From the NCBI RefSeq assembly GCF_013409625.1, contig NZ_JACCBF010000001.1, positions 4,467,001-4,531,000 on the forward strand: a DNA stretch of 64,000 nucleotides, read 5' to 3'. A model generated the notes under the pieces. It did no database searches. It saw only the letters and a list, made by a program, of their open reading frames with translations, and had not been told where the DNA came from. Shown here in pieces: positions 353 to 52,442 of this stretch (within the stretch, counting starts at the first letter, position 1; every line of letters begins with the position of its first letter). The position numbers were made by a program, and so were the translations under genes. This DNA is from Nocardioides kongjuensis. GTDB lineage: Bacteria > Actinomycetota > Actinomycetes > Propionibacteriales > Nocardioidaceae.

Positions 353-378
353 GTAAGACGGTCGACCAACCGCGCGTC
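353..378 (+). promoter_or_regulatory. ECF-type promoter, regulon site 1
   Basis: GTAAGA at 353-358, 16 bases, CGTC at 375-378. It matches the window-wide motif. The only candidate downstream is a 32-residue frame at 428-526 that ends just before the IS element. Confidence 0.45.
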
Positions 379-427
379 CCTACAGTAGGCGACGTCGGGC
401 CGGGCCCGCATCCCGCGCTCCGTCGCG

Positions 428-526
428 GTGTTCGTCTGGTCCGCGTCTGGGAGGGAGGCGGACCAGGCGAACACTACATTGGTCAGATGGCACAAGGAGA
501 TGGCCAGGGCAGCGCGGCGTGCCTAG
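428..526 (+). CDS. Very small possible protein downstream of regulon site 1
   Basis: A GTG-started frame of 32 codons begins MFVWSASGREADQANTT and ends in a basic Ala/Arg-rich tail followed by two consecutive TAG stops, 29 bases before the IS end. No ribosome binding site stands out. The only support is its position 50 bases after a good copy of the regulon promoter motif. It could equally be untranslated sequence in front of a gene displaced by the IS element. Confidence 0.2.
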   Translation: MFVWSASGREADQANTTLVRWHKEMARAARRA

Positions 527-554
527 TAGAAGGTCCCTTTGCGCAGGCAAGACG

Positions 555-1648
555 TCTAGGTGTACCCGGCCATCAGGTTGGTAGCAGCCGGCTGATCGGT
601 GGCTTGCCTCCAAGTGCGCTGTGGCGGCGTTCAGTGTTGTAGTGCTCGAGCCAGGGAGCAAGAGCGGCTGTGCGCTGGTCGTTGGTGGTGAAGACCTGGC
701 GGTAGGCCCACTCGGTGGCCAGGGTCCGGTTCAGGCGTTCGACCTTGCCGTTCTGCCAAGGGCAGTGGGGACGGATGAACTTCTGGACGATGCCGTGCTC
801 GGCGCACACCGTGCGCAGCGACCATCGGTAGGCCCAGGCGTTGTCGGTCATCAACCGCTCGATCCGAGTGATCCCGTGGGCGCCGAAGTAGGCGATCGCA
901 CGCTCGAGGAATGCCGCGCAACTTGGCCCCTTCTCGTCGGGCAGGATCTCCCTGTAGGCCAGCCGGGAGTGGTCATCGACCAGGGAGTGGACGTAGTCGA
1001 ACCCGACCTTCGTGGACCGGTCGCGCTCGATCGAGCCACTGGCACGACCGTGGGCACGCCAGCCGCCGCCGTCGGGGATCCGGCCGATCTTTCTTCACAT
1101 CCATGTGGACCAGCTCGCCGGGCCGGTCCCGCTCGTAGCGGATCGCGGTCTGTTTCGAGGACCGGATGACATCGCCGGTGATCGGGTCGCACTCACGCAG
1201 GTAAGGCACGCGGTAGCGACGCAGAATCCGTGACACAGTCCGTGCAGGCACTCCGACCTTCGGGCCGAGAACATCAGGGCCCTCACGCAGCTCGGCACGA
1301 GCAGCGAGGACCTTCTGCTCGACCTCGTTGCTGGTCTTGGTGGGCAGCGAGTGGGGGCGTGAGGAGCGGGTGGCCAGGCCGTCTTCGCCTTCGGCGGCGT
1401 AACGGTCGATCCAGGTCTTCACACACTTGCGAGACACGCCCATCGCAGCAGCGATGTGGGCTTGTTTCCAGCCTGCTTGGTGGCGTTGGACGATCAGGCG
1501 TCGACCGTGAACGGTCAGCCGGGCACTACCGTGGGACACGAGAACCTCCGGGTTGGAGTGGGCCTTAGACAAGCCACATCCCACCCGGAGGTTCTCGTTC
1601 GTTCAGCCAGCCACGCCGCTACCAACGTCCTGGCCGGGTACACCTAGA
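555..1648 (-). mobile_element. IS481-family insertion sequence (inactivated)
   Basis: The element is about 1.09 kb, bounded by a perfect 18-bp inverted repeat (TCTAGGTGTACCCGGCCA at 555-572 and its complement at 1631-1648), and carries one transposase gene. The IS481 family is known to target NCTAGN. Here TCTAGG on the left and CCTAGA on the right flank the TGTACC ends in mirror orientation, so they either belong to the inverted repeat or are not a simple target duplication. A second inverted pair (1541-1554 and 1583-1596) flanks the presumed transposase promoter. Confidence 0.85.
573..1539 (-). pseudogene. IS481-family transposase, frameshifted
   Basis: The GTG start at 1539 gives an N-terminal helix-turn-helix (HIAAAMGVSRKCVKTWIDRY). 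The integrase core then begins (ELVHMDVKK) and runs out of frame near 1090. Continuing one frame over restores the family sequence: KIGRIPDGGGW, the DDE region, then DNAWAYRWSLRTVCAEHG and NRTLATEWAYR to the stop at 573. The cause is one extra A in the run GAAGAAAGATC, so the copy is either dead or misread at a homopolymer. IS481 transposases are not normally made by programmed frameshift. An intact protein would be about 320 residues. Confidence 0.85.
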
Positions 1649-1760
1649 GCGGTGCATTTGGGTCCACGATCGGTGCCGGTGGAGACCAGACTTCAGAGCG
1701 CCACGGCTCTGAAATGGCCCGAGGACATCGGCTGTGGCGGCCGAGGCCCTCGGGCCTGGA

Positions 1761-2057
1761 TCACATTCCCGGCATGGCGAGGAACTCGTGGACGTCGATC
1801 GTGCCAACCGCAAGATGGGGATGCGCGGCGAGCAGATCGTCGAGGGCCTCACGAGATTCGGTCTCGAGGATGGAGTAGCCACCGACGGTGCTGTCGCCTC
1901 CGGAGACGGGGGAGCCTCCGTCGACAACGGCGTCGCCGGCACGGCCGAACCACTCCATCCACGCTTGCATGCCAGCCTGCTGCGCTTCCGGGCTTGCGCT
2001 GGCCATCTGCTCCTGTGCGGAGGAGTCGGATCGGTAGAGCACGAGGTACTTGGTCAT
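1761..2057 (-). CDS. YciI-related domain protein
   Basis: This 98-residue protein starts MTKYLVLYRSDSSAQEQM and ends DVHEFLAMPGM. The N-terminal beta strand, the central WMEWFGRAGDAVVDGG segment and the ETESREALDDLLAAHPHL helix are typical of the small actinobacterial YciI-like / DGPF-domain proteins. Their function is mostly unknown, although some sit beside ECF sigma factors of the SigJ type. I chose the ATG at 2057 because GAAAGGA lies at suitable distance upstream; the longer frame adds 14 unlikely residues. It stands alone and I saw no regulon motif on its strand. Confidence 0.8.
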   Translation of the reverse strand: MTKYLVLYRSDSSAQEQMASASPEAQQAGMQAWMEWFGRAGDAVVDGGSPVSGGDSTVGGYSILETESREALDDLLAAHPHLAVGTIDVHEFLAMPGM

Positions 2058-2370
2058 CTTTGGGGTTTCCTTTCGTTGCGGTGGCACCGTGCCGTCCACG
2101 CCGGCCCACGACCGGGTTGGAACGTGGGCGCGTCTCCGATGACCGGGCGGTTTTCACGGCGACTACATCTGCGCCGTCGGTGTATTGACGGCCCAGGAAC
2201 GGGATGACGCTGCGAGATAGACGGTTCTGGGATGCACGGGCTTACGTCGGTTTGGTACCGACGAGCGCCCCCCGGATTCCGTGCCTCTTGGTGCCCGGAT
2301 GGGCCGGAGGGTTCCTGCCAATCGTCGGTTGATCTTGGCAATTCGCCGCGAGTTACTGCAGGTGTCGCGA

Positions 2371-2396
2371 GTAAGTGGGAGCGGTCCGGCAGCGTC
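2371..2396 (+). promoter_or_regulatory. ECF-type promoter, regulon site 2
   Basis: GTAAGT at 2371-2376, 16 bases, CGTC at 2393-2396, upstream of the secreted protein at 2457. An ATG 6 bases after CGTC opens a 14-codon leader frame. Confidence 0.65.
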
Positions 2397-3066: not shown

Positions 3067-3092
3067 GTAAGTCATGCGGTCACATCTCCGTC
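3067..3092 (+). promoter_or_regulatory. ECF-type promoter, regulon site 3
   Basis: GTAAGT at 3067-3072, 16 bases, CGTC at 3089-3092. It lies 52 bases upstream of a small membrane protein at 3145. Confidence 0.6.
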
Positions 3093-3382: not shown

Positions 3383-3408
3383 ATAAGTATGACGCTCCGC
3401 GCTGCGTC
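3383..3408 (+). promoter_or_regulatory. ECF-type promoter, regulon site 4 (sigma fusion 1, autoregulation)
   Basis: ATAAGT at 3383-3388, 16 bases, CGTC at 3405-3408. The ATG of the sigma/anti-sigma fusion follows exactly 8 bases after CGTC, which implies a leaderless mRNA. The first base differs from the GTAA consensus. Confidence 0.55.
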
Positions 3409-3416: not shown

Positions 3417-4997
3417 ATGTCGAACAGTGCACGACGGCACTCCGGGGACGACGAGCGGCTCCTCGAAGCGGCTCGAGGAGGCGACGACGACGCCTTCAGC
3501 CAGCTCTATGAGAAGTACGTCGGTGAAGCGCGGGCCTACGCCTCCAAGGTGGCGGGCGACAGTCAGGCGCAAGACCTGGTCAACGAAGCGTTCTCGCGCG
3601 TCTGGACCAAGGTGCGGGCCGGCGGCGGCCCAGGTCCGGATTCCTTCCTGTGGTACCTGCTGGCTGCGATTCGCAATCTCAACGTCAGTCAACTTCGCAA
3701 GACTGGACGAGAAACCCTCATGGAGGACGTCGGGGCCCTGCCTGGTATGCAGGTTGATGACCTAGCCGAGCAGTATGCCGAGCGATCCACAGTCGCCGAG
3801 GCCTTCCGATCGATGCCCAGTAGGTGGCAAGAGGTCCTGTGGGCTTCCGCTGTGATGGGTGAGCCCGTCGAGGAGATCGCCGACCGGCTCGGCCTCAAAC
3901 CAAATGCGGTGCATGCCCTCCAGTTCCGGGCTCGAGAAGGGCTGCGTCTGGCCTACCTGCGCGAACACGTTGCAGGGACGCATGATCCTGGTTGCGAGCG
4001 AGCCGCAGAGCTCATGCCGCGGGCGGTTCGGGGCGGTTTGCGCCGGGCGCAGCGGACCTGGCTCGAGGAACATCTCGCCACCTGCGACCGGTGTAGGGCA
4101 TCGCTTGAGGACCTCGGTCAGTTGAACAACCGCCTCGCGGCTGTTCTTGCCCCTGCTCTCCTCGGCATGGCCGTGCTCCCCAAGTCCGGGCACGCGGCCA
4201 TCAAGGTCGCCGCCTGGTCGTCGCTGAAGGTGACAGCGTCTGTTGCCGCGGCATCGGTGATTGCGGGATCGACGCTCTGGATAGGCCGCCCGGTGTTCGA
4301 CAACGAGGGCAGTGACGAACGCCCCGTGTCGGCTGCGGAGCAGCACCACGAAGACGGTGCGCGGCTTCCTTTCGCGCCGGTCGTGCCCGGCTCAGCGGGG
4401 CCCTCCAAAGCGAAGAAGGCGAAGGTGGTCGGCGCAAGCGGAGAGCGACAGCCCCAGGCGCGTCCTCCCGCTGAGCCCCGTGTCAACCAAGGCACTCAGG
4501 CAAAGCCGGTGAACAAGAGGTTGGCAACACCGACTGCTCCATCGCCGGGTTCATCGAAGACGCCTCCGGCGCCCACTGCCAGTGCGCCGCCGGTCGACGT
4601 GCCGCCGGTCGATCCGGTTCCGGATCCGCGTATCGCGTCCCTCTCGGCGACGAGCTGGTGGCGGCAGCAGCGGGTTGAGTCTCATGTCGATGTCCTGGCA
4701 CTTGCCGAAGGCGAGCCGGCGACGCTCGTCATGACCTTTACCAACGTCCAGTGGTTCAGCCCTGACCTCCGTGACGCTCCCGGATGGACCTGTCATGTCG
4801 TCCGATTCGAACCGAACCGGCTCGCAGAGGTCCGGTGCAGCGCCTCGGAGAACAGCGGGTCCGGTGCGATCGGGCTCGACCTCGGGTGGGCACCGAACAC
4901 ATCTCAGGTCGACATCAACACCGAGCTGCAGGTCTCATCGACGGTCGATGCCGATCCGTCGAACAACGCGAGGTCAGATCGCCTCGATCTGCCGTGA
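3417..4997 (+). CDS. Sigma-70 (ECF) factor fused to zinc-finger anti-sigma, membrane helix and extracellular sensor
   Basis: A 526-residue single-chain regulator. Residues about 15-190 are an ECF sigma factor: region 2 (AFSQLYEKYVGEARAYASKV ... QDLVNEAFSRVWTKV) and region 4 (PSRWQEVLWASAVMGEPVEEI). Near residues 195-230 there is a zinc-binding anti-sigma motif of the H-x3-C-x2-C type (EHLATCDRC). A membrane helix follows around residues 265-290, then a Pro/Ala-rich linker and a beta-rich outer domain with a W-x-C...C pair that ends in a DUF11-like VDADPSNNARSDRL. Actinobacterial ECF groups with C-terminal membrane extensions are known; in them the sigma part is thought to be held at the membrane until a signal arrives. 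The promoter in front of this gene suggests autoregulation. The lack of a ribosome binding site fits a leaderless start. Confidence 0.88.
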   Translation: MSNSARRHSGDDERLLEAARGGDDDAFSQLYEKYVGEARAYASKVAGDSQAQDLVNEAFSRVWTKVRAGGGPGPDSFLWYLLAAIRNLNVSQLRKTGRETLMEDVGALPGMQVDDLAEQYAERSTVAEAFRSMPSRWQEVLWASAVMGEPVEEIADRLGLKPNAVHALQFRAREGLRLAYLREHVAGTHDPGCERAAELMPRAVRGGLRRAQRTWLEEHLATCDRCRASLEDLGQLNNRLAAVLAPALLGMAVLPKSGHAAIKVAAWSSLKVTASVAAASVIAGSTLWIGRPVFDNEGSDERPVSAAEQHHEDGARLPFAPVVPGSAGPSKAKKAKVVGASGERQPQARPPAEPRVNQGTQAKPVNKRLATPTAPSPGSSKTPPAPTASAPPVDVPPVDPVPDPRIASLSATSWWRQQRVESHVDVLALAEGEPATLVMTFTNVQWFSPDLRDAPGWTCHVVRFEPNRLAEVRCSASENSGSGAIGLDLGWAPNTSQVDINTELQVSSTVDADPSNNARSDRLDLP

Positions 4998-5171: not shown

Positions 5172-5197
5172 GTAATGACCCGGACGAGCGACGCGTC
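5172..5197 (+). promoter_or_regulatory. ECF-type promoter, regulon site 5 (adhesin/pilus operon)
   Basis: GTAATG at 5172-5177, 16 bases, CGTC at 5194-5197. The GTG start of the adhesin is exactly 8 bases downstream. It probably drives adhesin, pilins and sortase together. Confidence 0.65.
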
Positions 5198-5205: not shown

Positions 5206-8200
5206 GTGACGGTCAGTAGCGCATCTCTGTTGGGACTCCCGGCGCGCCGCCGCGGTGGCGCACACCGGGGCGCGCGTCGTCGTACCGGAATTCCGCTGAG
5301 CCAAATGATCCCCCGCGCGCTCGCAGCCTTCCTGCTCGTCGCCATCGCGGTTGTCGCGCCCAGCCTCGCGCCAGGGGTCGCGCCTCGCGCGAGTGCGGCT
5401 CCAGGCGACCCGTTCCCTGCGACGAATCCGCAGGCTTGGATGCTTGCCAACGACCCTGCCACGTTGTACTCGATCACCAACAACGCCGACGGCACGATCT
5501 CGTTCACCGCGGCGGGTGCGACGGGCAGCCTGGGCAGCGAGGTCAATGCCCTCGCATTCAACGCGCTTGACGGTTACCTGTATGCGACGCAAAGAGTCGG
5601 CGGTGTGAGCGGCGTAAACCGCCTGATCAAGATCGGGCAGAACGGTGTCGTCGTGACCGCCAACGTCGCGACCCTTCCGGATGCCGTTCCTGGCGTCTCC
5701 GGGACACAGAACTTCATCGACGGGACTGTTGACCCGGCGACCGGAACCTTGTACCTGTCAGCCAACAACGTCAGCATGTCGACTTTCACGAAGGTCAACC
5801 TCGCCACTGGCGCGGTCACCACGACGAACTTGTCGCAGACGTTCAGCAACAGCGGAATCGCAGACTGGGTCTTCCAGGCCGGTTTCCTGTGGACGGTCAA
5901 CGATGGCGGAGACCTGATCAAGGTCGACCCCGCCACCGGCGTGGCGACGACGGTCAAGACGAACGCGATTCCCGACGCAACCACGCCTCCGTCTGGGCCG
6001 CAGGCGTACGGCGGCGGCTTCGCCCTGGGAAACGGCAACATCGTCTTCATCGACAACGGCACCGGCAAGGCCTACCAGATCAACATGTCGTCGGGCACCT
6101 ACAACTCGTACTACGTCGGCGATGGACCGTCGACAGCCAACAACGACGCCACTTCCGGCCTTGGCTCGCCGACGGACCTGGTGGTCGGCAAGTGTGGTCC
6201 GAGCCAGGGAACCTGCAAGTTTCCGACCGGCAACAACACGCCGCTGCACTCCTATCCGCTCGGCCAGGACCCGGCATCCAACTACGTCGCCGGCTCGACC
6301 TTCACCTACACGCTGACCGTCTACAACGATGGTCCGGGCCTGAGCAGTGGCTCCGTTGTCACCGACACCCTGCCGACCGGCACGACCTACTCGTCGTCGA
6401 GCTTGTCGACCTGCGTGGCGAGCGGCTCGACGGTCACCTGTGGTGTCGGCCAGATCGCGGCCGGCACGAGCATCTCGTTCACGATCACCGTCAACGTGGC
6501 GTCGAGCACGACCGGTGCGGTCACCAACACCGCGACTGTGCTCGGCAACGAGGCCGAGGTCGATACAAAGGACAATTCCGACACCCACACGCTGGCGGTC
6601 CAGCTGTCCTGCGCGGCCGGAACCATCTACGGCGTCAACCGTACGTCGCCGTACTCGCTTCTCGCGATCAACTCCGGAACGGGAAGTTCGACCGGGGTGG
6701 CCACCTTCAACACACCCCCCATCGACCTGCTGGGCTTCCAGGAGCTCAACGCCCTCGCGATTGCTCCTGGTGGCACTGCGGCATATGCAGTCTCGAACTA
6801 CCGGACCTCGGCCGGGACCGTCACGGTGCAAAAGTACGACCCCTCGAGCGGGGCGGTCACCAATGTCGGCACCCTCTCGTTGGCAAGCGGCCTGTACATC
6901 GTCGGCGGTGCGTTCGACCCGACCACCAATCGCTATTGGCTGATGACCTACAACTCCCTCAACGGGTGGTACGAGTTCTACGCCTACGACACCGCCACGA
7001 ACACCTCGCTCGGAAGGCAGTTCTCGTTCCCCTGGAACACCGACCTGACACTGCACGGAAACGGTGACCTCGCGTTCGACGCGACCGGCCGTCTCTACGT
7101 GCTGATGAGCGACGGCTCTGCTCGGAGTCAGATCCGCATGTTCGCGCCTCCGCTTCCGAGTGGGGACACCAACCTTACGTCGTCGTCTGGGACGCTGCTC
7201 ACCTCGCCGGTGGGCGCGGTCACGGTGGAGTCCAACGGCATCGCCTTCGGCGCCGACGGCTACCTGTACGCGCAGAGTCTGGACGGCACCGGCGGGCAGG
7301 CTGTCATCCGCAAGATCGACCCTGCAACGGGCGTGGTGCAGTCGTCGGTGAATCTGACGAACCCCGACGGGACAGCGAACACGAAGTCGGTCGACCTTGC
7401 CTCCTGCGCCATGCCGAGCACGATCACGCTCCAGAAGAACATCGTCGGACGCAAGGTGGCCACCGACCAATTCGACCTGAGCATCACCGGCAACGGTGTC
7501 AGCCAGAACAACACAGCCACCACCAGCGGATCCACCACGGGACTGCAGACGAATGCGGGCGCCGTCGCCGGTCCGGTCCTGGTGATCCCGGGCAAGGTCT
7601 ACGCGATCACCGAGGCCGGGGCGAGCGGTGCGAACCTCGCGAACTACAGCCGCAGCTATGAGTGCGTCAACACCCTGAACAACAACGTGGTCGTCGCCTC
7701 GGGGACGACCTCCTCGGGCTCGGTCACCGTGCCTGCGGCAAGCGCGACAGGCGCCAACATCGTCTGTACGTTCACGAACACACCGCTCAATCCCAGCATC
7801 AACATCGTCAAGAGCTCAGGCAGCGTGACCGGGCCAGATGCCAGCGGGGTCTACACGGCGAACTACACGGTCACGGTGGCCAACTCCGGCAACGCGAGCG
7901 GGACCTACGGCCCCCTGGTCGACACTCCGGCCTTTGACTCCGACTACACGGTGCAGAGCGCGTCGTGGGCCGGCCAGAGCACGGGGTCGGCCACCGGGAC
8001 CGGGCCGTTCACGCTGGCCCCGTCAGGTACCTCCATCGGCGTCGGTGTCACCCACACCTACAACGTGGCGATCAAGTTCAAGTACACCGGCACCGGGGTG
8101 ATCACCGCCTGCGGAGGTCCGGGCACTGGATTGTTCAACTCGGTCGCAGCGATCGGTGAGACAGGGCCCACCACGGACAACTCGGCGTGCAACACCCCGC

Positions 8201-9138
8201 CGGCGAACATCAATGTCACGAAGACCGCGGGCTCTGTCAGCGGTCCGGACGTCGCGGGCAACTACACGGTCACGTACTCGGTGAAGGTCATCAACAGCGG
8301 CCTGTCGGCAGGCAGCTACGGCGCGTTGACCGACACGCCGGCGTTCTCGGCGAACCTGGTGCTGACCGCTGCGAGCTGGACGACATCGGGTGCAGGTGCA
8401 CCGGGGAACGGCGGCGCCAGCGGTGCTGGCCCGTACGCGCTCGCCCCCGCAGGGACGACCATTGCCGCCGGCGTGACCCACACTTTTGCGCTGACCATCA
8501 CCTTCCACTTCTCCGACAACACCGTCGCTACGGTGTGCGGCGGCCCGGGCGCCGGCTTGTACAACGCGGTCGCGGTTCCGTCAGGACAGGAGACCAGCAC
8601 GACAGACAACTCGGCATGTGTCGAGCCGCCGAAGCGCTACGACGTGTTCGTGCGCAAGGTCGGCAAGAACGCCGCCGGATTCACTGTCTCGCTCGCGGGC
8701 TCGACTTGGCAGTTGCAGGCCGATGCCAACGGCACTCCGGGAGCAGTCATCACCGGTGGCATCCAGCCCGTGTCGGGTCAGACGGGCGAGTTCAAGATGT
8801 CACAGCTTCAGCCCGGTACCTACTGGCTCACGGAGACGAAGGCGCCGACGGGCTACCAGTTGCTCGCACAGCCGATCAAGTTCGTCGTGTCCGCGACGGG
8901 TGTCGTCACAGTCGCCAGCGGCGGTGACACCGCGATCAGTGTGGGCAGCACCTCGGGCGGTCAACCTGAGATCACGGTCGGAGACGTCGCTGCTCTGACC
9001 CTGCCCCTCGCTGGAGGCAGCGGCACGAAGGCCTTCGCCCTCCTTGGAGGCTTCCTGCTGCTCCTGACCGTGCTGTCGCTCGTCCTGTTCCGCCGTCCCA
9101 GCTCGGGCGCGAGCACCGGAAAGCGGGTGAGGGAGTAG
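5206..9138 (+). CDS. Large surface adhesin with DUF6923, DUF11 and SpaA-like domains, sortase-anchored
   Basis: This 1310-residue cell-wall protein has a long basic N-terminus, then a signal peptide ending near SAAPGDPF. Two propeller-like DUF6923 segments (about 75-330 and 470-730) surround a DUF11 domain (about 350-460). A SpaA-like prealbumin domain, two related Cys-containing modules (each ending TTDNSAC) and a last SpaA domain with an E-box (YWLTETKAPTGY) follow. The C-terminus is LPLAGG, a hydrophobic helix and a basic tail; LPLAG departs from LPxTG at the fourth position. First gene of an operon with two pilins and a class C sortase, so it is probably the tip or ancillary pilin. The leaderless GTG is chosen because it lies 8 bases after the CGTC box. 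Confidence 0.85.
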   Translation: MTVSSASLLGLPARRRGGAHRGARRRTGIPLSQMIPRALAAFLLVAIAVVAPSLAPGVAPRASAAPGDPFPATNPQAWMLANDPATLYSITNNADGTISFTAAGATGSLGSEVNALAFNALDGYLYATQRVGGVSGVNRLIKIGQNGVVVTANVATLPDAVPGVSGTQNFIDGTVDPATGTLYLSANNVSMSTFTKVNLATGAVTTTNLSQTFSNSGIADWVFQAGFLWTVNDGGDLIKVDPATGVATTVKTNAIPDATTPPSGPQAYGGGFALGNGNIVFIDNGTGKAYQINMSSGTYNSYYVGDGPSTANNDATSGLGSPTDLVVGKCGPSQGTCKFPTGNNTPLHSYPLGQDPASNYVAGSTFTYTLTVYNDGPGLSSGSVVTDTLPTGTTYSSSSLSTCVASGSTVTCGVGQIAAGTSISFTITVNVASSTTGAVTNTATVLGNEAEVDTKDNSDTHTLAVQLSCAAGTIYGVNRTSPYSLLAINSGTGSSTGVATFNTPPIDLLGFQELNALAIAPGGTAAYAVSNYRTSAGTVTVQKYDPSSGAVTNVGTLSLASGLYIVGGAFDPTTNRYWLMTYNSLNGWYEFYAYDTATNTSLGRQFSFPWNTDLTLHGNGDLAFDATGRLYVLMSDGSARSQIRMFAPPLPSGDTNLTSSSGTLLTSPVGAVTVESNGIAFGADGYLYAQSLDGTGGQAVIRKIDPATGVVQSSVNLTNPDGTANTKSVDLASCAMPSTITLQKNIVGRKVATDQFDLSITGNGVSQNNTATTSGSTTGLQTNAGAVAGPVLVIPGKVYAITEAGASGANLANYSRSYECVNTLNNNVVVASGTTSSGSVTVPAASATGANIVCTFTNTPLNPSINIVKSSGSVTGPDASGVYTANYTVTVANSGNASGTYGPLVDTPAFDSDYTVQSASWAGQSTGSATGTGPFTLAPSGTSIGVGVTHTYNVAIKFKYTGTGVITACGGPGTGLFNSVAAIGETGPTTDNSACNTPPANINVTKTAGSVSGPDVAGNYTVTYSVKVINSGLSAGSYGALTDTPAFSANLVLTAASWTTSGAGAPGNGGASGAGPYALAPAGTTIAAGVTHTFALTITFHFSDNTVATVCGGPGAGLYNAVAVPSGQETSTTDNSACVEPPKRYDVFVRKVGKNAAGFTVSLAGSTWQLQADANGTPGAVITGGIQPVSGQTGEFKMSQLQPGTYWLTETKAPTGYQLLAQPIKFVVSATGVVTVASGGDTAISVGSTSGGQPEITVGDVAALTLPLAGGSGTKAFALLGGFLLLLTVLSLVLFRRPSSGASTGKRVRE

Positions 9139-9217: not shown

Positions 9218-10702
9218 ATGACCATGTCCACCACGGGACGCTTCAAGGCGCTCCTCATGGCGATTGCCGCGCTTGGCGTCGTGTTGGTCGGGCTTGCTTC
9301 GTCGGCGAGTGCGGCGTCGCCGTCGCTGCCGGACCCGACCAAGACCGGCTCCATCAACATTCACAAGTTCAAGGCTCCTGACAGCCCGACGGGGTTGCCG
9401 AACAACGGAACGGTGCAGGACACGACGGGTCTGACCCCGGTTCCGGGTGTGACGTTCTCGATCCAGAAGGTGGGCGGGATCGACCTGACCACCAACCAGG
9501 GTTGGCAGGACGCCAGCGCTCTCAGTGGCGTGTTCAACCCGGCCAATGCGTCGGGTTCGATCACCGGGGCCGGTTACACCCTGACGGCTGCGTCGGGCTC
9601 GCCCGTGACCACGAACGCGAGTGGTGACGCATCGCTGGCGGGTCTTCCGCTGGGCCTGTACCTGGTGACCGAGACGGCGTACCCGACCGGTACGACGCCG
9701 TCGGCGCCGTTCCTGGTCTCGGTCCCGCTGACCAACCCGGCCGACCAGTCCACGTGGCTCTACGACGTCAACGTGTACCCGAAGAACTCGATCGACAACG
9801 TCTCCAAGACGGTTGAGGACGCCAATGCGGTCAAGTTGGGCGACCCCGTGACGTGGACGATCAAGGGTGACATCCCGAACGTGAAGACGATCGACGGCTA
9901 CAAGATCGTCGACCAGCTCGACCCCAAGCTCGACTACGTGGGCACCACGGTCACGCTGGCCGATGGCACCGCGATCACCCAGGGGACCGACTACGACGTT
10001 GTGTTCGACTCCGCCACCAACACCGTGACGGTGCAGTTCACCGCTGCGGGTCGGCTGGTGCTGGCGGCGCACCCCGCCACGCAGGTCGTGGTGAAGATCG
10101 ACACCAAGGTCAACGCGGTCGGTGAGATCGTGAACACCGCGCTGCTGTACCCCAACGCGGCCAGCTTTAACGTCCAGCCCGGCAACCCGGGTGGCCCGCC
10201 GGTCACCCCGCCGGTGATCACCAAGTGGGGATCGATGACCGTGCAGAAGGTCGACGAGAACGGTGCCGCGCTCAGCGGTGCGCAGTTCAGCGTCTACCCG
10301 ACCGAGGCCGACGCCAAGGCCGGTACCAACGCGATCACCCTGGGCGGTCAGACGGTCTTCGCTGTTGACGCGAACGGTCAGGTCACGATCTCGGGCCTGC
10401 GGTACTCCGACTGGGCCAACGGTGTCGCGGTCGCCCCGGGCGATGCGGGCTACCAGACCTACTGGCTGGCCGAGGTCAAGGCCCCGACCGGTTACGAGCT
10501 CCTCGCCCAGCCGGTCGAGTTCACCATCACCGCCGCGACCACCACGGTCGGTGTGGACATGACGGTCAAGGACGTCCCGGCCAACGCCGGGTTCCAGCTG
10601 CCGCTCACCGGTGGCAAGGGCATCTGGCTCTACTACATCGGCGGTGCTCTGCTGCTCGGCGCCGCGCTGGTGCTGAGCATCCGTCGCCGGCAGAACGCCT
10701 GA
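9218..10702 (+). CDS. LPxTG major pilin 1 (SpaH/EbpB-like isopeptide-forming fimbrial protein)
   Basis: This 494-residue pilin has a signal peptide cut near SSASA. A pilin motif WLYDVNVYPKN places the polymerising lysine near residue 189. Isopeptide-forming Ig/SpaA domains follow, with E-box YWLAEVKAPTGY (Glu near 419). The sorting signal LPLTG (461-465), a hydrophobic helix and the basic tail RRRQNA close it. Class C sortases join the pilin-motif lysine of one subunit to the LPxTG threonine of the next, so this should form the shaft. ATG at 9224 is an equally good start, with GAGAAGAG better spaced. About 1.18 kb is almost identical to the next gene. Confidence 0.92.
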   Translation: MTMSTTGRFKALLMAIAALGVVLVGLASSASAASPSLPDPTKTGSINIHKFKAPDSPTGLPNNGTVQDTTGLTPVPGVTFSIQKVGGIDLTTNQGWQDASALSGVFNPANASGSITGAGYTLTAASGSPVTTNASGDASLAGLPLGLYLVTETAYPTGTTPSAPFLVSVPLTNPADQSTWLYDVNVYPKNSIDNVSKTVEDANAVKLGDPVTWTIKGDIPNVKTIDGYKIVDQLDPKLDYVGTTVTLADGTAITQGTDYDVVFDSATNTVTVQFTAAGRLVLAAHPATQVVVKIDTKVNAVGEIVNTALLYPNAASFNVQPGNPGGPPVTPPVITKWGSMTVQKVDENGAALSGAQFSVYPTEADAKAGTNAITLGGQTVFAVDANGQVTISGLRYSDWANGVAVAPGDAGYQTYWLAEVKAPTGYELLAQPVEFTITAATTTVGVDMTVKDVPANAGFQLPLTGGKGIWLYYIGGALLLGAALVLSIRRRQNA

Positions 10703-12131
10703 TCGGCAACGTCCTACTGAACACCTGAGGTAGGGGCGGTCGGCCTCACCTGGCCGACTGCCCCTACCCGGGCTCGAGAAGGAAAGCAGTGACCATGTCC
10801 CTGAAGAACGCCGCAGGCCTCCGGACACGCACGCGCGCGGTGTTCATGGCGATCGCTGCGATTGCCGCGCTTGGCGTCGTGTTGGTCGGGCTTGCTTCGT
10901 CGGCGAGTGCGGCGTCGCCGTCGCTGCCGGACCCGACCAGGACAGGGTCACTCGACATTCACAAGTTCAAGGCTCCTGACAGCCCGACGGGGTTGCCGAA
11001 CAACGGAACGGTGCAGGACACGACGGGTCTGACCCCGGTTCCGGGTGTGACGTTCTCGATCCAGAAGGTGGGCGGGATCGACCTGACCACCAACCAGGGT
11101 TGGCAGGACGCCAGCGCTCTCAGTGGCGTGTTCAACCCGGCCAATGCGTCGGGTTCGATCACCGGGGCCGGTTACACCCTGACGGCTGCGTCGGGCTCGC
11201 CCGTGACCACGAACGCGAGTGGTGACGCATCGCTGGCGGGTCTTCCGCTGGGCCTGTACCTGGTGACCGAGACGGCGTACCCGACCGGTACGACGCCGTC
11301 GGCGCCGTTCCTGGTCTCGGTCCCGCTGACCAACCCGGCCGACCAGTCCACGTGGCTCTACGACGTCAACGTGTACCCGAAGAACTCGATCGACAACGTC
11401 TCCAAGACGGTTGAGGACGCCAATGCGGTCAAGTTGGGCGACCCCGTGACGTGGACGATCAAGGGTGACATCCCGAACGTGAAGACGATCGACGGCTACA
11501 AGATCGTCGACCAGCTCGACCCCAAGCTCGACTACGTGGGCACCACGGTCACGCTGGCCGATGGCACCGCGATCACCCAGGGGACCGACTACGACGTTGT
11601 GTTCGACTCCGCCACCAACACCGTGACGGTGCAGTTCACCGCTGCGGGTCGGCTGGTGCTGGCGGCGCACCCCGCCACGCAGGTCGTGGTGAAGATCGAC
11701 ACCAAGGTCAACGCGGTCGGTGAGATCGTGAACACCGCGCTGCTGTACCCCAACGCGGCCAGCTTTAACGTCCAGCCCGGCAACCCGGGTGGCCCGCCGG
11801 TCACCCCGCCGGTGATCACCAAGTGGGGATCGATGACCGTGCAGAAGGTCGACGAGAACGGTGCCGCGCTCAGCGGTGCGCAGTTCAGCGTCTACCCGAC
11901 CGAGGCCGACGCCAAGGCCGGTACCAACGCGATCACCCTGGGCGGTCAGACGGTCTTCGCTGTTGACGCGAACGGTCAGGTCACGATCTCGGGCCTGCGG
12001 TACTCCGACTGGGCCAACGGTGTCGCGGTCGCCCCGGGCGATGCGGGCTACCAGACGTACTGGCTGGCCGAGGTCAAGGCCCCGACCGGTTACGAGCTCC
12101 TCGCCCAGCCGGTCGAGTTCACCATCACCGC
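9357..12131 (+). repeat. Direct duplication of pilin coding sequence (two 1177-bp copies, offset 1598)
   Basis: Bases 9357-10533 and 10955-12131 align without gaps; I noticed one difference, a synonymous C/G at 10459/12057. An 80-bp signal-peptide stretch just upstream (from 9260 and 10858) is also the same at the same offset. The flanks then diverge sharply. This indicates very recent duplication or ongoing gene conversion. Confidence 0.9.
10729..10768 (+). terminator. Strong hairpin between the two pilin genes
   Basis: A 17-bp stem (10729-10745 with 10752-10768, one G-U pair) closes a 6-base loop, 27 bases after pilin 1 and just before pilin 2. There is no U-run, so it is more likely a partial terminator or an mRNA-stabilising structure that sets the ratio of shaft subunit to the genes downstream. 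Confidence 0.6.
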
Positions 12132-12393
12132 TGAATCTTCGAAGCCCGGAGTCGACCTCCGCATCACGAACCTGCCCAACCAGGTGTCCCCCGGATGCGC
12201 TGAAGCAGTCCGGAGCTCCGGCACTCCCACCAGCGACTGTAATGACAACGGCGGTGGTCACAGCCCGTTCCTGCCGCAAACCGGTGGCCCGGCCTTCCTC
12301 GCCCTCGTGGCTGGCCTGGTTCTTGTTGCAGGAGGCGCGTTGTTCGTGACGGCCGCGCGGCGTCGCGGAGACGCCCCGAGCTCCCTTCGATGA
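10795..12393 (+). CDS. LPxTG pilin 2, near-identical paralogue with different anchor region
   Basis: About 532 residues, the same shaft as pilin 1 including signal peptide, WLYDVNVYPKN lysine and E-box. After VEFTIT the sequence departs: a spacer with two Cys (PGCAEAVRSSG ... SDCNDNGGG) leads to LPQTG, a membrane helix and the tail RRRGDAPSSLR. Because only the ends differ, the two pilins probably share assembly chemistry but could be handled differently at the last step, for example by the housekeeping sortase, or be linked by a disulfide. ATG at 10795 is preferred over GTG at 10789 because GGAAAG is then 8 bases away. It overlaps the sortase gene by 4 bases (ATGA). Confidence 0.9.
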   Translation: MSLKNAAGLRTRTRAVFMAIAAIAALGVVLVGLASSASAASPSLPDPTRTGSLDIHKFKAPDSPTGLPNNGTVQDTTGLTPVPGVTFSIQKVGGIDLTTNQGWQDASALSGVFNPANASGSITGAGYTLTAASGSPVTTNASGDASLAGLPLGLYLVTETAYPTGTTPSAPFLVSVPLTNPADQSTWLYDVNVYPKNSIDNVSKTVEDANAVKLGDPVTWTIKGDIPNVKTIDGYKIVDQLDPKLDYVGTTVTLADGTAITQGTDYDVVFDSATNTVTVQFTAAGRLVLAAHPATQVVVKIDTKVNAVGEIVNTALLYPNAASFNVQPGNPGGPPVTPPVITKWGSMTVQKVDENGAALSGAQFSVYPTEADAKAGTNAITLGGQTVFAVDANGQVTISGLRYSDWANGVAVAPGDAGYQTYWLAEVKAPTGYELLAQPVEFTITAESSKPGVDLRITNLPNQVSPGCAEAVRSSGTPTSDCNDNGGGHSPFLPQTGGPAFLALVAGLVLVAGGALFVTAARRRGDAPSSLR

Positions 12394-13346
12394 GCACCAT
12401 CGAACTGCCGCGGTCCGCTGCCAGCGCGGCGCCCCCTCCGCGTCCGCGGCGCACACGCCGCTGGCGCGGCATCGTGACGGCGTGGACCATCAGACGCGCG
12501 CTCGTGGTCGTGCTGGGCATGGCCGGATTCGCAGTTCTGCTCTACCCGTCTGCCGGCGCATGGTTCACCGACCGCGCGCACGCTTCTGTCGTGAGCGGCT
12601 ACGCCGAAACAGTGAAGTCGATGACCCCCGAGTCGATCCGACAGCAGTTGCACGCGGCCCACCAGTACAACAAGCATCTGCCCAAAGGTCCTCTTCGCGA
12701 TCCCTACAGTTCTTCGGGAGCCGGTCAGGAAACAGCGCTGGGCAGCGACGCGAAGAGGTACCTTGACACGCTGAACGTCGTCCAGGGCGGAATGATGGGC
12801 GTCCTTTCCATCGGCGGCATTGGGGTCACGCTGCCTGTGTTCCACGGCACCGGTGCCTCGACGTTGGACAAAGGTGTTGGGCACCTCTACGGAACGGCTC
12901 TGCCGGTTGGGGGTCGGGGTACCCATTCAGTCCTGACCGGGCACTCGGGTATCGCCGGAGTCACCCTGTTCACTCACCTGCATGAGATGCAGCTGGGTGA
13001 CACGTTTACGGTCACGGTCCTCGACCGAACCTTGACCTATCAGGTGGACCAGATCAAGACGGTGCTGCCCGAGGAGACTGAGGATCTCGAACCGATCGCC
13101 GGCGAGGACCACATCACCCTCGTTACCTGCACGCCGATCGGTGTGAACAGTCATCGGCTCCTGGTTCGCGGCATCCGCATCCCCACGCCGAAGTCGGTCT
13201 CACCGCCGGCATTCATCGCCGGCAAGTCAGGTCCGGGCTTTCCCTGGTGGATCCTCGAAGCTTGCGGGGGCTTGGTCGTCCTGCTCCTGATCTCGAGCCC
13301 ACTCGGTCGGCGTGCACCGCGGCGTTCCGAGGGCTCCGGCAGGTAA
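12390..13346 (+). CDS. srtC: Class C (pilus-polymerising) sortase
   Basis: A 318-residue membrane enzyme with an N-terminal signal-anchor (residues about 30-55), the class C lid motif DPY (104-106), catalytic His185 (LTGHSG), Cys247 (TLVTCTP) and Arg256 (NSHRLLVRG), and a C-terminal hydrophobic helix before a basic tail, as usual for class C. It forms isopeptide bonds between pilin subunits outside the membrane. It is translationally coupled to pilin 2 by a 4-base overlap and ends the operon that starts at 5206. A GC-rich inverted repeat at 13335-13364 may terminate it. Confidence 0.95.
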   Translation: MSTIELPRSAASAAPPPRPRRTRRWRGIVTAWTIRRALVVVLGMAGFAVLLYPSAGAWFTDRAHASVVSGYAETVKSMTPESIRQQLHAAHQYNKHLPKGPLRDPYSSSGAGQETALGSDAKRYLDTLNVVQGGMMGVLSIGGIGVTLPVFHGTGASTLDKGVGHLYGTALPVGGRGTHSVLTGHSGIAGVTLFTHLHEMQLGDTFTVTVLDRTLTYQVDQIKTVLPEETEDLEPIAGEDHITLVTCTPIGVNSHRLLVRGIRIPTPKSVSPPAFIAGKSGPGFPWWILEACGGLVVLLLISSPLGRRAPRRSEGSGR

Positions 13347-14961: not shown

Positions 14962-14987
14962 GTAATGTCAGGTGCGTCTCGAGCGTC
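14962..14987 (+). promoter_or_regulatory. ECF-type promoter, regulon site 6 (giant adhesin)
   Basis: GTAATG at 14962-14967, 16 bases, CGTC at 14984-14987, about 50 bases upstream of the adhesin start. Same hexamer as at the first adhesin. Confidence 0.65.
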
Positions 14988-27017: not shown

Positions 27018-27036
27018 CGGCGTGCGCAAGACCGCG

Positions 27037-29254: not shown

Positions 29255-29280
29255 GACGCACGTGGGCGCGCAGCACTTAC
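29255..29280 (-). promoter_or_regulatory. ECF-type promoter, regulon site 9 (minus strand)
   Basis: On the minus strand GTAAGT (29280-29275), 16 bases, CGTC (29258-29255), in front of the gene starting at 29219. The only site on this strand, and correctly oriented. Confidence 0.6.
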
Positions 29281-30321: not shown

Positions 30322-30347
30322 GTTAGAAATCGCTGGTCCCAAGCGTC
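30322..30347 (+). promoter_or_regulatory. ECF-type promoter, regulon site 10
   Basis: GTTAGA at 30322-30327 (one mismatch to GTAA), 16 bases, CGTC at 30344-30347. The ATG at 30356 is exactly 8 bases downstream, which also decides the start. Confidence 0.5.
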
Positions 30348-31002: not shown

Positions 31003-31028
31003 GTAAGTTTCCCGCCAGTGGCGACGTC
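31003..31028 (+). promoter_or_regulatory. ECF-type promoter, regulon site 11
   Basis: GTAAGT at 31003-31008, 16 bases, CGTC at 31025-31028, with the ATG at 31037 exactly 8 bases downstream, implying a leaderless mRNA. Confidence 0.65.
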
Positions 31029-31950: not shown

Positions 31951-31976
31951 GTAATCTCCTTGGCGTCCTGCACGTC
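31951..31976 (+). promoter_or_regulatory. ECF-type promoter, regulon site 12
   Basis: GTAATC at 31951-31956, 16 bases, CGTC at 31973-31976. The first gene downstream is the 49-residue membrane protein at 32073. Confidence 0.55.
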
Positions 31977-32328: not shown

Positions 32329-32354
32329 GTAATGATCACTCGATGGCCCGCGTC
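32329..32354 (+). promoter_or_regulatory. ECF-type promoter, regulon site 13
   Basis: GTAATG at 32329-32334, 16 bases, CGTC at 32351-32354. It is followed by two mini-frames and, 214 bases downstream, the metalloprotease gene. Confidence 0.55.
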
Positions 32355-33290: not shown

Positions 33291-33316
33291 GTAAGATCGA
33301 CGGCTCTCTGCACGTC
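33291..33316 (+). promoter_or_regulatory. ECF-type promoter, regulon site 14 (hydroxylase/sulfotransferase cassette)
   Basis: GTAAGA at 33291-33296, 16 bases, CGTC at 33313-33316, 49 bases before the proline-rich surface protein gene. An out-of-frame ATG lies 6 bases after CGTC at 33323. Confidence 0.65.
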
Positions 33317-35924: not shown

Positions 35925-36040
35925 TCAGCCGCTGGCCAACAGTTGCCGGTGCCGAATGCTCCCGTAAGCGACGTTCCGCCGGCTCGTCTACTTGGCAATA
36001 CGCCCGCCTCAGTGACTGATGTTGTCTGGTGAGGAGACCC

Positions 36041-36827: not shown

Positions 36828-37403
36828 GCGTCAAGAGCTTATGGCCGAAGAGTGGGCGTCTGGTCGGAGCTATCCGGCCGGCGCTCGACGGTGGCGGCCA
36901 CCAGACCCGTTGCCAGTGACCGCCACCTGTGCCTCAGCCTGATTGTGGGGACAGAACTGTGACACTGATAGGCACGCACGCTCCGTTTGACGAAGCGGCG
37001 TGCGACCGAGCCTGGGCTGCGTTGCCAGTCCAACGGTCTATGGACACTGACGAACGTCAGGGCTTCTTCCTTACAGGCCAATTTTCGTGGGGTCCTTGCA
37101 TTGACGCGCCGACCCGTTCTCGCTTGGTTCGAATGAACATCGCTCGCCGCTCGCAAGGGCTGCGCTGCCCGAACAACAACCGCTTACGGCGTCGGTTCCC
37201 CTCGTTTCTGGCGCTCCCTTCCTCCGGCGCCCGAGTTCGGTGCGACAAGGACTGGTCCTGAGCGCGATCTGTCTCACGACTGTGCCGGCGTGGTAGTCAC
37301 AGGCCACGAGGGTCATCACGCGCGCAGCGATGCCCCGCCGTGCTCTCGAGTGTCGCCCTGCTCAAGGTCGGCAGTTGCCCGCGATCACGTAACAGAGGTG
37401 TTC
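36828..37403. other. Intergenic stretch with no confident gene
   Basis: A GTG-started plus frame near 36958-37261 (VTLIGTHAPFDEAACDRAW ...) has some protein-like sequence but no promoter or ribosome binding site, and its second half is implausible. It may be the remnant of a lost gene. Confidence 0.4.
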
Positions 37404-38240: not shown

Positions 38241-38568
38241 TACGCCTCGCTGTCACTTGGCGGGTCCGGTGTTGCTGCGCCGCGGTCATCTGGGTCCGGA
38301 AGCTGGACGGCGCCAGACGGAGATCGACTGCGGTTCGGGGCAACGGCCGATCATCCTGTTAACGGTGAACGGACCTCCGATCCCCGTCTGGCAAAGGGCG
38401 CCTGGCGTGGCATCCTTCTTCCTCCTTGACGTCGCCCCGTCGTCGTTCCTTACGCCGCCCGGACCGGACGCGGGGGAGGTCGGAGTTGTGTTTCGCGGGA
38501 CCACCCCGCGGCCGCGAGTGTCCGGCGTCACTGCGGGAACGCTCGCGGGCGCACGCTGGAGGGTCGAA
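38241..38568. other. Intergenic stretch with no confident gene
   Basis: A plus-strand frame of 155 codons crosses this gap (38224-38691) but runs into the PucR gene antisense and has no ribosome binding site. I treat the region as non-coding. Confidence 0.4.
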
Positions 38569-44396: not shown

Positions 44397-44402
44397 CCGA
44401 TC

Positions 44403-50349: not shown

Positions 50350-50375
50350 GTAAGCCCAGAACTTCCCTGTGCGTC
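50350..50375 (+). promoter_or_regulatory. ECF-type promoter, regulon site 15
   Basis: GTAAGC at 50350-50355, 16 bases, CGTC at 50372-50375, upstream of the PLD-like gene. Confidence 0.5.
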
Positions 50376-50713: not shown

Positions 50714-50739
50714 GTAAGGCCGTGCCGATTGGGAACGTC
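50714..50739 (+). promoter_or_regulatory. ECF-type promoter, regulon site 16
   Basis: GTAAGG at 50714-50719, 16 bases, CGTC at 50736-50739, giving a leader of about 160 bases for the PLD-like gene. Confidence 0.55.
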
Positions 50740-50904
50740 GCATGGGTGTCGGACAACGGAGCCCGACGTGACTGCCGTGCGAGCGCTGCGCCAGGCACCC
50801 ACCCAACTCGAACGCTGAGTGGGTGACGCCCGCAGCACGATCACGGCCCAGCGCTTTGCTGACGTCACCTCGCGCAGCAAGCAGATGATCCCGGGAGTTG
50901 AACG

Positions 50905-52266
50905 GTGCTCTTTTCTGATGGACGGACTTGGCTCGGCCGGAGCCTCAGGCCGACAGTGACTGCGATTGCGATGGTTGCGGCAGCGGTTGTGTTGTCGTTG
51001 TTTCCCTTGCGTCCAGCTCACGCAGGATCGCTTGCCGGCGGCGAGCTGCAGCGCCTCTCGGCGAGGGCGGCTGATCCCTCATACGTGGTGGCACCCGGAA
51101 TCGTCTTCAACCATCCCTTCCGTAAGAAGAAGCGAACACGTATCCAGCGCAAGATCATCAACACGGTCAGGAACGTTCCCGCGGGCGAGACGATTCGACT
51201 GGCTACATGGAACTTTGACTCACCGATCCTGGCAAGGGCGTTCATCAAGGCTCATCGTCGGGGGGTCTCGGTGCAGATCATCATGTCGCGTGGCCTGGCG
51301 AGGGCTCAAGGAGCCGGCGGCTCGTACCAGACCCTTCGATCTGCGCTGGGAAAGGGAAACGCAGACCGGCCTCCGTCTATGCGCAGCTGGATCCGCACGT
51401 GCCGATACACGTGCCGCGGCAAGGGGGGTGCCATGCACTTCAAGTTCATGCTGGTCAGTCGGTCCGGTGCGACCAATTGGGTCGTCTCTCAAGGGTCAGG
51501 CAACTTCACCGGTGCCGCCGCCGTTCAGCAGTTCAACGACTGGACGACCGTCACTGAAAACAAGGCATTGTGGGATGGCTGGATCAACATCTGGAACCAG
51601 GCTGTGAAGGACCGGAACTTTCCCGCTGTCCGGTTCACAACCGGCGAGATCACCTCAACGTTTGCTCCCCACAAGAGCGATGTGGATCCCGCGTTGGCTG
51701 TTCTGAACAAGGTGCAGTGCACGGGAGCGGCGAACACTGCAAGCGGGCGTACGAAGGTTCGCATCGCCAACGCTGTGTGGGGTGAGGAGCGCGGAGCACG
51801 AATCGCACGGAAAGCGCGAGAGCTCGATCGCGCAGGCTGTGACGTCGAGATCGTCTTCATGATGATGCAGCGAAAGATCCGCGCCATCCTTCGGGGGATG
51901 CGCGCCAAGCAAATGGTCTACATCGTGGGCGCGACGGCCGACAAGTTCAAAGACCGTTACGTCCACCTGAAGGGCCTTGCAGTTCAGGGAAACGTGGCCG
52001 GTGCCGCGGACGGAAATGTCGTGCTGTCAAGTAGCGAGAACTGGACGCGCCTCGGATGGCATTCCGATGAGCAGGACGTCATCTTCTGGAACGACGCAAC
52101 GATGGCCTCGAAGTATGCGAACTGGGTTGACCTGATCTACCGCCAGGCGCCTCGCAGCCTGAACAACTACGTCAACTCAGCCGACCCCGCGCGTCGAGTC
52201 CCGGGTACGGAGTACCTCAAGCCCAAGGACTACCCGTTCGAGGATCTCGAGGCTGAGTTGGGGTAG
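50905..52266 (+). CDS. Secreted phospholipase D-like protein
   Basis: 453 residues with a signal peptide (VTAIAMVAAAVVLSLFPLRPAHA). Two PLD half-sites are present: HFK (His178, Lys180) followed by GSGNFTG, and HLK (His354, Lys356) followed by SSSENWT. In both the Asp of the HxKxxxxD motif is replaced (Ser185, Gln361), so catalysis may be altered. The family cleaves phosphodiester bonds in lipids or nucleic acid; acting outside the cell it could modify teichoic acid, lipid or DNA. GTG 50905 follows GGAGTTGAAC. A perfect 16-bp hairpin follows the gene. Confidence 0.8.
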   Translation: MLFSDGRTWLGRSLRPTVTAIAMVAAAVVLSLFPLRPAHAGSLAGGELQRLSARAADPSYVVAPGIVFNHPFRKKKRTRIQRKIINTVRNVPAGETIRLATWNFDSPILARAFIKAHRRGVSVQIIMSRGLARAQGAGGSYQTLRSALGKGNADRPPSMRSWIRTCRYTCRGKGGAMHFKFMLVSRSGATNWVVSQGSGNFTGAAAVQQFNDWTTVTENKALWDGWINIWNQAVKDRNFPAVRFTTGEITSTFAPHKSDVDPALAVLNKVQCTGAANTASGRTKVRIANAVWGEERGARIARKARELDRAGCDVEIVFMMMQRKIRAILRGMRAKQMVYIVGATADKFKDRYVHLKGLAVQGNVAGAADGNVVLSSSENWTRLGWHSDEQDVIFWNDATMASKYANWVDLIYRQAPRSLNNYVNSADPARRVPGTEYLKPKDYPFEDLEAELG

Positions 52267-52289
52267 AGAACCGCAGCGGTTCTGCCCGA

Positions 52290-52330
52290 ACACAGGCTTG
52301 GTTCGGTCAGGTTGCGAACCAAGCCTGTGT
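52290..52330 (+). terminator. Transcription terminator hairpin
   Basis: A perfect 16-bp stem (ACACAGGCTTGGTTCG at 52290-52305 with 52315-52330) closes a 9-base loop 24 bases after the PLD-like stop codon. There is no U-run, common in actinobacteria. Confidence 0.8.
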
Positions 52331-52416
52331 GCGGTGCGACGCTCGGGCGGCTCCATGCCTTCCAAGCCAACGCCGTTGGACCGGGCTGCACTCGTCGAGA
52401 CGGAGCGCAAACGACT

Positions 52417-52442
52417 GTAAGGATCTGTCATCGGCAGTCGTC
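52417..52442 (+). promoter_or_regulatory. ECF-type promoter, regulon site 17 (aquaporin)
   Basis: GTAAGG at 52417-52422, 16 bases, CGTC at 52439-52442, with a leader of about 90 bases to the aquaporin ATG. Confidence 0.5.

Follow-up and report, generated by a model that had tools for sequence, protein, structure and literature searches.

A repeated promoter-like motif in a 64-kb window

We analyzed a window of 64,000 nucleotides from the Nocardioides kongjuensis genome (contig NZ_JACCBF010000001.1) that contains the right end of an integrated element. The window encodes four extracytoplasmic function (ECF) sigma factors, here named sigA to sigD, together with large surface proteins, pilins and sortases, and it is dotted with copies of one bipartite motif (Table 1). 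An initial annotation had described 17 such sites, written GTAAnn-N16-CGTC, as an ECF-like regulon resembling the BldN promoter of Streptomyces (CGTAAC-N16-CGTTGA), BldN being a controller of surface chaplins. We write the same pattern as GTAA-N18-CGTC or, where a G follows GTAA, GTAAG-N17-CGTC. All 17 sites were recovered, with one start moved from 27037 to 27036. Fifteen are exact, and those at 3383 and 30322 carry ATAA and GTTA, as claimed; the minus-strand site given as 29280 spans 29255-29280. Three exact minus-strand sites (2220, 37049 and 38428) had been overlooked, which brings the window to 18 exact sites. In 200 second-order Markov simulations of the window the mean was 0.55 ± 0.68 sites and the maximum 3, so the motif is not equally dense in shuffled sequence.

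Table 1. Sites, genes and boundaries discussed in the text; window positions unless a genome or locus coordinate is given. ORF, open reading frame.
Feature	Position	Strand	Basis
Promoter-like site GTAAG-N17-CGTC	353..378	+	motif scan
Exact site, newly added; ~120 nt ahead of 112-aa ORF	2220..2245	-	motif scan
Site; 133-aa ORF (2457-2858, N-terminal hydrophobic stretch) 60 nt on	2371..2396	+	motif scan
Site; no ORF >=45 aa within 230 nt	3067..3092	+	motif scan
Variant ATAAG-N17-CGTC; sigA ATG 8 nt downstream	3383..3408	+	motif scan
Site; surface protein (5206-9138) GTG 8 nt downstream	5172..5197	+	motif scan
Site; giant adhesin ORF begins 52 nt on	14962..14987	+	motif scan
Site; GTG 6 nt downstream of CGTC	25155..25180	+	motif scan
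Site; 86-aa membrane protein 42 nt on	27036..27061	+	motif scan
Site directed at GPY protein 28950-29174	29255..29280	-	motif scan
Variant GTTAG-N17-CGTC; ATG 8 nt downstream	30322..30347	+	motif scan
Site; ATG 8 nt downstream (31037-31480, 147 aa, N-terminal hydrophobic stretch)	31003..31028	+	
Site	31951..31976	+	motif scan
Site; matrixin-like protein (32568-33218, N-terminal hydrophobic stretch) 213 nt on	32329..32354	+	
Site ahead of oxygenase/sortase/sulfotransferase-like cassette	33291..33316	+	motif scan
Site shorter by one base, GTAAG-N16-CGTC	35964..35988	+	motif scan
Exact site, newly added	37049..37074	-	motif scan
Exact site, newly added	38428..38453	-	motif scan
Site	50350..50375	+	motif scan
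Site ahead of PLD-like protein 50905-52266	50714..50739	+	motif scan
Site ahead of aquaporin-family protein 52537-53283	52417..52442	+	motif scan
sigA, 526 aa: ECF sigma, zf-HC2 anti-sigma, low-confidence/Pro-rich linker, adhesin-fold ectodomain	3417..4997	+	Pfam, structure model
sigB, second ECF sigma fusion, 462 aa	25629..27017	+	Pfam
sigC, small ECF sigma, 206 aa	49625..50245	+	domain scan
sigD, small ECF sigma, 207 aa, 41% to sigC	53409..54032	-	domain scan
Surface protein, 1310 aa: DUF6923, DUF11, SpaA, LPXTG-like C-end	5206..9138	+	domain scan
Two SpaA-type pilins and sortase, downstream of 5206-9138	9218..13346	+	Pfam
Giant adhesin, 3169 aa: DUF6923, 23 DUF7507 stretches, DUF11, LPXTG-like end	15040..24549	+	
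GPY protein, 152 aa, upstream of and overlapping sigB	25187..25645	+	HMM
Small membrane protein, 86 aa, PRK10457-like (below cut-off)	27104..27364	+	
GPY protein, 74 aa	28950..29174	-	HMM
Class E sortase	29575..30243	+	domain scan
GPY protein, 110 aa, behind GTTA variant	30356..30688	+	HMM
Cassette: Pro/Ser-rich membrane protein, 2OG-Fe oxygenase, class F-like sortase, sulfotransferase-like protein, in one row	33366-35924	+	
Tyrosine integrase, right end of element	54999..56363	+	domain scan
attR, 35-bp exact copy of tRNA-Thr(CGT) 3' end	56510..56544	+	
attL, 35 bp, 3' end of tRNA-Thr(CGT) gene	genome 4395685-4395719		
GPY member	L058:9446-9775		HMM

The sites are concentrated in one integrated element

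Across the whole genome (5,673,606 bp), a scan for GTAA-N18-CGTC returned 36 exact sites, against 15 for a reversed-pattern control. Thirty-three lie between genome positions 4396312 and 4519442, within a single element that makes up 2.25% of the genome, and only 3 fall in the rest of the chromosome. Both this confinement and the roughly twofold larger number of sites were missing from the initial annotation.

The element is 127,825 bp long and carries the hallmarks of an integrative element, namely att repeats derived from a tRNA end and an adjoining tyrosine integrase gene; the tRNA-Thr(CGT) gene itself (genome 4395646-4395719) forms the left boundary. Its GC content is low, 64.9%, where 2-kb windows of the left flank reach about 70-79%. 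When its flanks were joined, they aligned as one piece across the junction in genome G284 (query 1-468 of 940, junction 420, 89%) and also crossed it in G040 (10-471) and G231 (11-470), like an empty site. All three alignments stop ~50 bases beyond the junction. What remains of the right flank is found on a different contig in G284, whereas in G324 it shares the contig but sits ~650 kb away; the order of this neighborhood therefore differs between species, which limits the empty-site support. DNA right of attR is not beside the tRNA-Thr gene in G324 (C1:1872518 and 2522465) or G284 (C5 and C9), and the chromosomal neighborhood on that side may, judging from sequence, have a separate history. 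No relaxase or FtsK/TraB-type gene appeared among the scanned element ORFs, which included only part of the short and locus-end-spanning ones. The integrase found no match in plasmids and only a 27% partial match in phages.

Spacing, conservation and placement point to ECF promoters

When every 4-mer pair in the element is counted at each spacing from 10 to 25, GTAA-N18-CGTC ranks first, with 33 occurrences against 1.7 expected. Counts for GTAA and CGTC at spacings of 16, 17, 18 and 19 are 1, 6, 33 and 3. Column counts over the 33 sites retain (C)GTAA, the next G (24/33), CGTC, a weak T after it (15/33) and weak C/T neighbors. Their confinement to one element might suggest that the sites arose as copies of a dispersed repeat; spacer and flanks are hardly conserved, however, so the sites are not repeat copies, and we find that explanation scarcely credible. 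Of 24 single-substitution variants, GCAA alone is in strong excess (23 versus 8.7), and GTGA is borderline (22 versus 12.9, p 0.013). We rejected GCAA as a permitted -35, as 8 of its 23 sites are identical copies within the giant adhesin's 729-bp repeats.

The sites also avoid genes. Pfam-supported genes occupy 66,962 of the element's 127,825 bp, yet hold 3 of the 33 sites (p = 2e-7), so coding DNA does not match the gaps in motif density. Two of these three are followed 6 nt on by a start codon (GTG, TTG) that lies inside the long ORF; the site at 4457383, in a hydantoinase-B gene, is probably a chance occurrence. An ATG or GTG stands 6-8 nt after CGTC at 11 of the 33 sites (3.1 expected). 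The same placement recurs in two further genomes described below, at 13 of 22 sites in G120 (1.6 expected) and at 4 of 6 in N. lianchengensis, spacing-17 sites included (0.4 expected). It fits promoters whose transcripts would often be leaderless.

In having a -35/-10-like pair at near-fixed spacing outside coding DNA, the sites look like a set of ECF promoters. The initial proposal of an ECF-type, promoter-like set pointing at genes is thereby supported, as is the enrichment of start codons shortly after CGTC. A non-sigma regulator could instead use the motif as a bipartite operator: the case for promoters is drawn from sequence, and some sites lie 50-200 nt from the next ORF. The two halves are asymmetric, though, the sites are oriented to genes, CGTC is an ECF-like -10, the spacing is near-fixed and start codons follow at 6-8 nt, all of which makes an operator very improbable.

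The proposed targets held up in part. Adhesin, pilin/sortase, secreted-looking and sigma-fusion genes do stand behind the motif, but the label "surface and envelope" covers only part of the set, which also includes short uncharacterized ORFs, an immunity-protein gene, a PLD-like protein and an aquaporin.

Two sigma-anti-sigma fusions lie behind the motif

Both fusions, sigA and sigB, match the sigma2 and sigma4 families (PF04542, PF08281) above cut-off. The zf-HC2 anti-sigma domain scores 31.3 bits in sigA (cut-off 22.2) and 21.8, just below, in sigB, and its Cys/His columns are invariant in an alignment of eight sequences. A Pro-rich stretch and hydrophobic segments were recognized by eye only. 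From the full-length structure model, the sigA ectodomain is predicted to have an MSCRAMM/pilin-like Ig fold; modeled alone, the ectodomain was weak (pLDDT 65).

Sequence searches with the ectodomains returned little. Neither that of sigA nor that of sigB matched Pfam at E<=5, and the ectodomain of the G120 fusion hit Big_3_5 and Calycin_like at E 0.097 and 0.13, far below cut-off. By HMM, the sigA ectodomain had no convincing match to the adhesin repeats; the best values in other homologues were E 0.003-0.004, with shuffled controls from 0.22, and one homologue (P0025) has a precomputed DUF11 domain. No sigB relative was found in viral contigs.

The motif lies exactly 8 nt ahead of the sigA start codon, as the ATAA variant, and precedes the gene upstream of sigB, 6 nt from its GTG. 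The likeliest readers of the motif are sigA and sigB, which themselves stand behind it; this would amount to positive autoregulation. Within 400 nt upstream of the unfused factors there is no exact motif: sigC has two one-mismatch look-alikes and sigD one, at spacings of 17 and 19. Kinship to BldN was not supported. Against NCBIfam TIGR02952, the four element ECF proteins score 49.8, 39.9, 20.6 and 21.3 bits, far below the cut-off of 206.45.

A host chromosomal ECF sigma might in principle read the element's promoters. Besides weaker ECF matches, the host has two more strong fusion matches (loci L006 and L007), with 40% and 33% identity to sigB where they align. With 3 exact sites outside the element, such a factor would have almost no host targets, and the 400 nt upstream of each host fusion contain no copy of the motif even when one mismatch is allowed. 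We consider a host reader quite improbable.

Two other Nocardioides carry the motif ahead of related sigma genes

We scanned 146 Nocardioides genomes for GTAAG-N17-CGTC together with a control pattern. Clear enrichment was confined to N. kongjuensis (25 versus 7 for the control) and G120 (27 versus 1); N. lianchengensis (G062) has a small cluster (7 versus 2), and none of the remaining genomes exceeded its own control by more than 5. The 27 sites of G120 are spread over 22 contigs, and 23 begin GTAAGGA. The set therefore looks genome-wide there, as far as a fragmented assembly can show; the regions retrieved cover 22 of the 27 sites, on 17 of the 22 contigs. Near a sigma fusion of N. lianchengensis, at distances up to 8 kb, there are three exact sites, and two more there have spacing 17.

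This recurrence, which the initial annotation did not report, again centers on sigma genes. In G120 the motif sits exactly 8 nt ahead of the start codon of the fusion. In N. lianchengensis it sits exactly 8 nt ahead of a small sigma gene; genes for a GPY protein (see below) and the fusion come next on that strand. All three genomes thus have the motif at the head of an ECF gene or operon that includes an ECF/zinc-finger anti-sigma/linker/ectodomain fusion, and ahead of large surface proteins. Targets in G120 include a DUF6923/GEVED protein, a DUF11 protein and an FkbM methyltransferase, to which inspection by eye adds a WhiB-like protein and ORFs resembling lipoproteins; in N. lianchengensis the motif precedes a 1714-aa SdrD_B surface protein ending in a sortase domain (L030:13911-19055). 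An 86-aa membrane protein stands behind it in both the N. kongjuensis element and G120 (69% identity).

The motif precedes sigA, the G120 fusion and the N. lianchengensis sigma operon and has no exact copy within 400 nt ahead of sigC or sigD, which favors the fusions as readers. Since a relative of sigD also occurs in G120, sigC or sigD could still be the reader, with the fusions only targets or modulators. Among 293 genomes of the order (at most 10 candidates scored in each), matches to sigD at E<=1e-12 were found only in N. kongjuensis, G120 and N. lianchengensis, the motif-bearing genomes, and the factor directly behind the motif in N. lianchengensis is a small one. On the other side, the look-alikes ahead of sigC and sigD have shifted spacings, the 11.8-kb G120 stretch with the sigD relative contains no exact site, and the N. 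lianchengensis match to sigD is the fusion itself, at 31%. We judge a small unfused reader unlikely.

GPY small proteins accompany the fusions and the motif

Three small proteins of the element share a core P-h-h-V ... G-P-Y/F, for which we coin the name GPY. An HMM built from these three and the N. lianchengensis copy was run on six-frame ORFs of the fetched loci. It found a member beside the host chromosomal fusion L007 (L007:6819-7208, minus strand, E 2e-8) and a weak match in G120 directly behind a motif site (L034:6579-7100, minus strand, E 0.012); the family also has a member in L058. The protein at 25187-25645 matched no Pfam family, and that at 30356-30688 no NCBIfam family. By sequence, then, the GPY proteins appear linked to ECF sigma fusions and to the motif, the G120 case being a weak match.

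A proposed element-encoded, autoregulated surface regulon

Our preferred reading, to which we assign a probability of roughly 0.7, is that GTAA(G)-N17/18-CGTC represents the -35 and -10 of promoters read by an element-encoded ECF sigma, in an autoregulated, ECF52/53-like surface regulon. Its computed basis is the motif, its confinement, spacing, gap preference and start-codon placement, its recurrence in two other Nocardioides and the predicted ectodomain fold. At the membrane, the zinc-finger part would keep sigma2/sigma4 silent. Proteolysis, as predicted for ECF48, ECF52 and ECF53, may be triggered by a signal sensed by the MSCRAMM-like ectodomain, such as contact, adhesin or pilus assembly, or wall state. 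The freed sigma would guide RNA polymerase to the ~33 element promoters, many of whose transcripts would be leaderless, starting 6-8 nt after CGTC. The likely output is adhesins, pilin and sortase genes, secreted proteins and GPY small proteins.

Several observations weigh against this reading. Four element ECF proteins, together with the host fusions and ECF matches, leave the motif reader not uniquely identified, and with one mismatch allowed, no copy of the motif lies in the 400 nt ahead of either host fusion or of the second fusions of N. lianchengensis (L052) and G120 (L053). Neither ATAA, found at the sigA site, is enriched as a class (1 versus 0.4), nor is GTTA, the variant ahead of a GPY gene. 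No ATG, GTG or TTG lies 5-9 nt after CGTC at 17 of the 33 element sites, and several have only short uncharacterized ORFs behind them. For the ectodomain, integrin and macroglobulin domains fit the sigA fold as well as adhesins do, and homology to DUF11 repeats, which we tried and rejected, is not significant by sequence. Finally, among 80 kept Actinobacteria sigma-fusion loci, GTAA-N16-19-CGT occurs on the coding strand within 300 nt upstream in only 7, N. lianchengensis included; we therefore ruled out a motif general to the sigma-fusion family.

Four of those seven loci have GTAAC, three of them Kribbella records and one named Streptomyces sp. SID13031. In these (L063, L064, L066 and L069), GTAAC(C/T)TC...TCGTC lies upstream of the fusion, with a GTG 7-8 nt downstream in three of the four; it may represent a sister promoter code. 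Among the upstream pairs that the 80 loci share, the strongest are of a TGAC/CACA type, mostly from one related group.

A broader picture is conceivable, although we hold it doubtful: a mobile element with its own transcription language, used ~33 times and almost never in the host, read by a membrane-tethered sigma whose outer adhesin-type domain senses the surface structures it turns on, with a GPY protein as fixed regulatory partner.

Other genes of the element

Further targets in the element are a Big_9/CshA protein behind the site at 4413632, a GH16 protein, a CAP protein and an Imm70 protein. In the cassette at 33366-35924, the class F sortase falls below cut-off and the sulfotransferase was assigned from sequence inspection only; possibly, the cassette hydroxylates and sulfates a surface protein. 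The giant adhesin gene contains at least 8 near-identical 729-bp repeats, and a 2605-aa antisense ORF running through them is probably a by-product.

Window positions 39262-49373 hold S-Me-THD, hydantoinase, oligopeptide ABC transporter and M19 dipeptidase genes without exact motif sites; this is separate catabolic cargo. In the left half of the element, where motif sites are sparse, genes for a DNA methylase, an HD/PRTase-CE protein, a DpnII-MboI-type nuclease and DUF5131 (L002:9893-10801, L002:16154-18892, L004:3194-4291 and L004:5868-6623) are possible defense cargo. An Lsr2-type protein adjoins attL (genome C1:4396520 region, L002) and a DUF4193-type protein lies at 4438295, both placed by pattern. 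By eye, a similar ORF is present near the N. lianchengensis sigma fusion.

Comparison with known systems

Literature on fused or tethered sigma factors, element-borne ECF regulons, Nocardioides adhesion regulons and BldN contained no counterpart among the matches listed, which covered few subscription papers. To that extent, the novelty lies in how strict the motif is and in the near-confinement of the promoter code to mobile DNA, as well as in the GPY proteins and the adhesin-like outer fold. If correct, our reading would offer a clear case of integrated DNA whose cargo answers to the element's own RNA-polymerase specificity, separately from the network of the host. It would also tie fused ECF sigma factors, most of whose signals are obscure, to surface adhesion by way of a sensor with an adhesin fold. 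With a strict motif and a fixed start distance, the prediction lends itself to a direct test, and an orthogonal promoter might be built from the motif.

Like BldN-RsbN, the element system combines a GTAA -35, similar spacing and surface-protein targets; unlike it, its ECF proteins fall below the NCBIfam BldN cut-off, its -10 is CGTC and its anti-sigma is fused. In the SetCD system of SXT/R391, the AcaCD system of IncA/C plasmids (acting on SGI1) and RpoS with ICEclc, as far as the available accounts go, a regulator likewise links the promoters of an integrated element, although SetCD and AcaCD are activators and RpoS is a sigma factor of stationary phase; none of them is an ECF sigma encoded by the element.

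The closest architecture is that of ECF48, ECF52 and ECF53, in which sigma is described as fused to a zinc-finger membrane anti-sigma and release by proteolysis is expected (PMC8999054, PMC5826349). Autoregulation has been proposed for such factors, and for the ECF52 member SCO4117 of Streptomyces coelicolor an effect on the differentiation genes chp and rdl is reported (PMC5826349, PMC8999054). With these groups the element fusions share an ECF sigma, a zinc finger and an outer domain and, apparently, a membrane/Pro-rich part. The outer domain of ECF52 is described with a carbohydrate-binding module, whereas that of the element fusion is predicted to have an adhesin/pilin-like Ig fold, and the SCO4117 motif CSGYN-17-SRHA, itself only predicted from one member, differs from GTAAG...CGTC. 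A further difference is that the proposed N. kongjuensis regulon resides on an integrated element and hardly extends beyond it.

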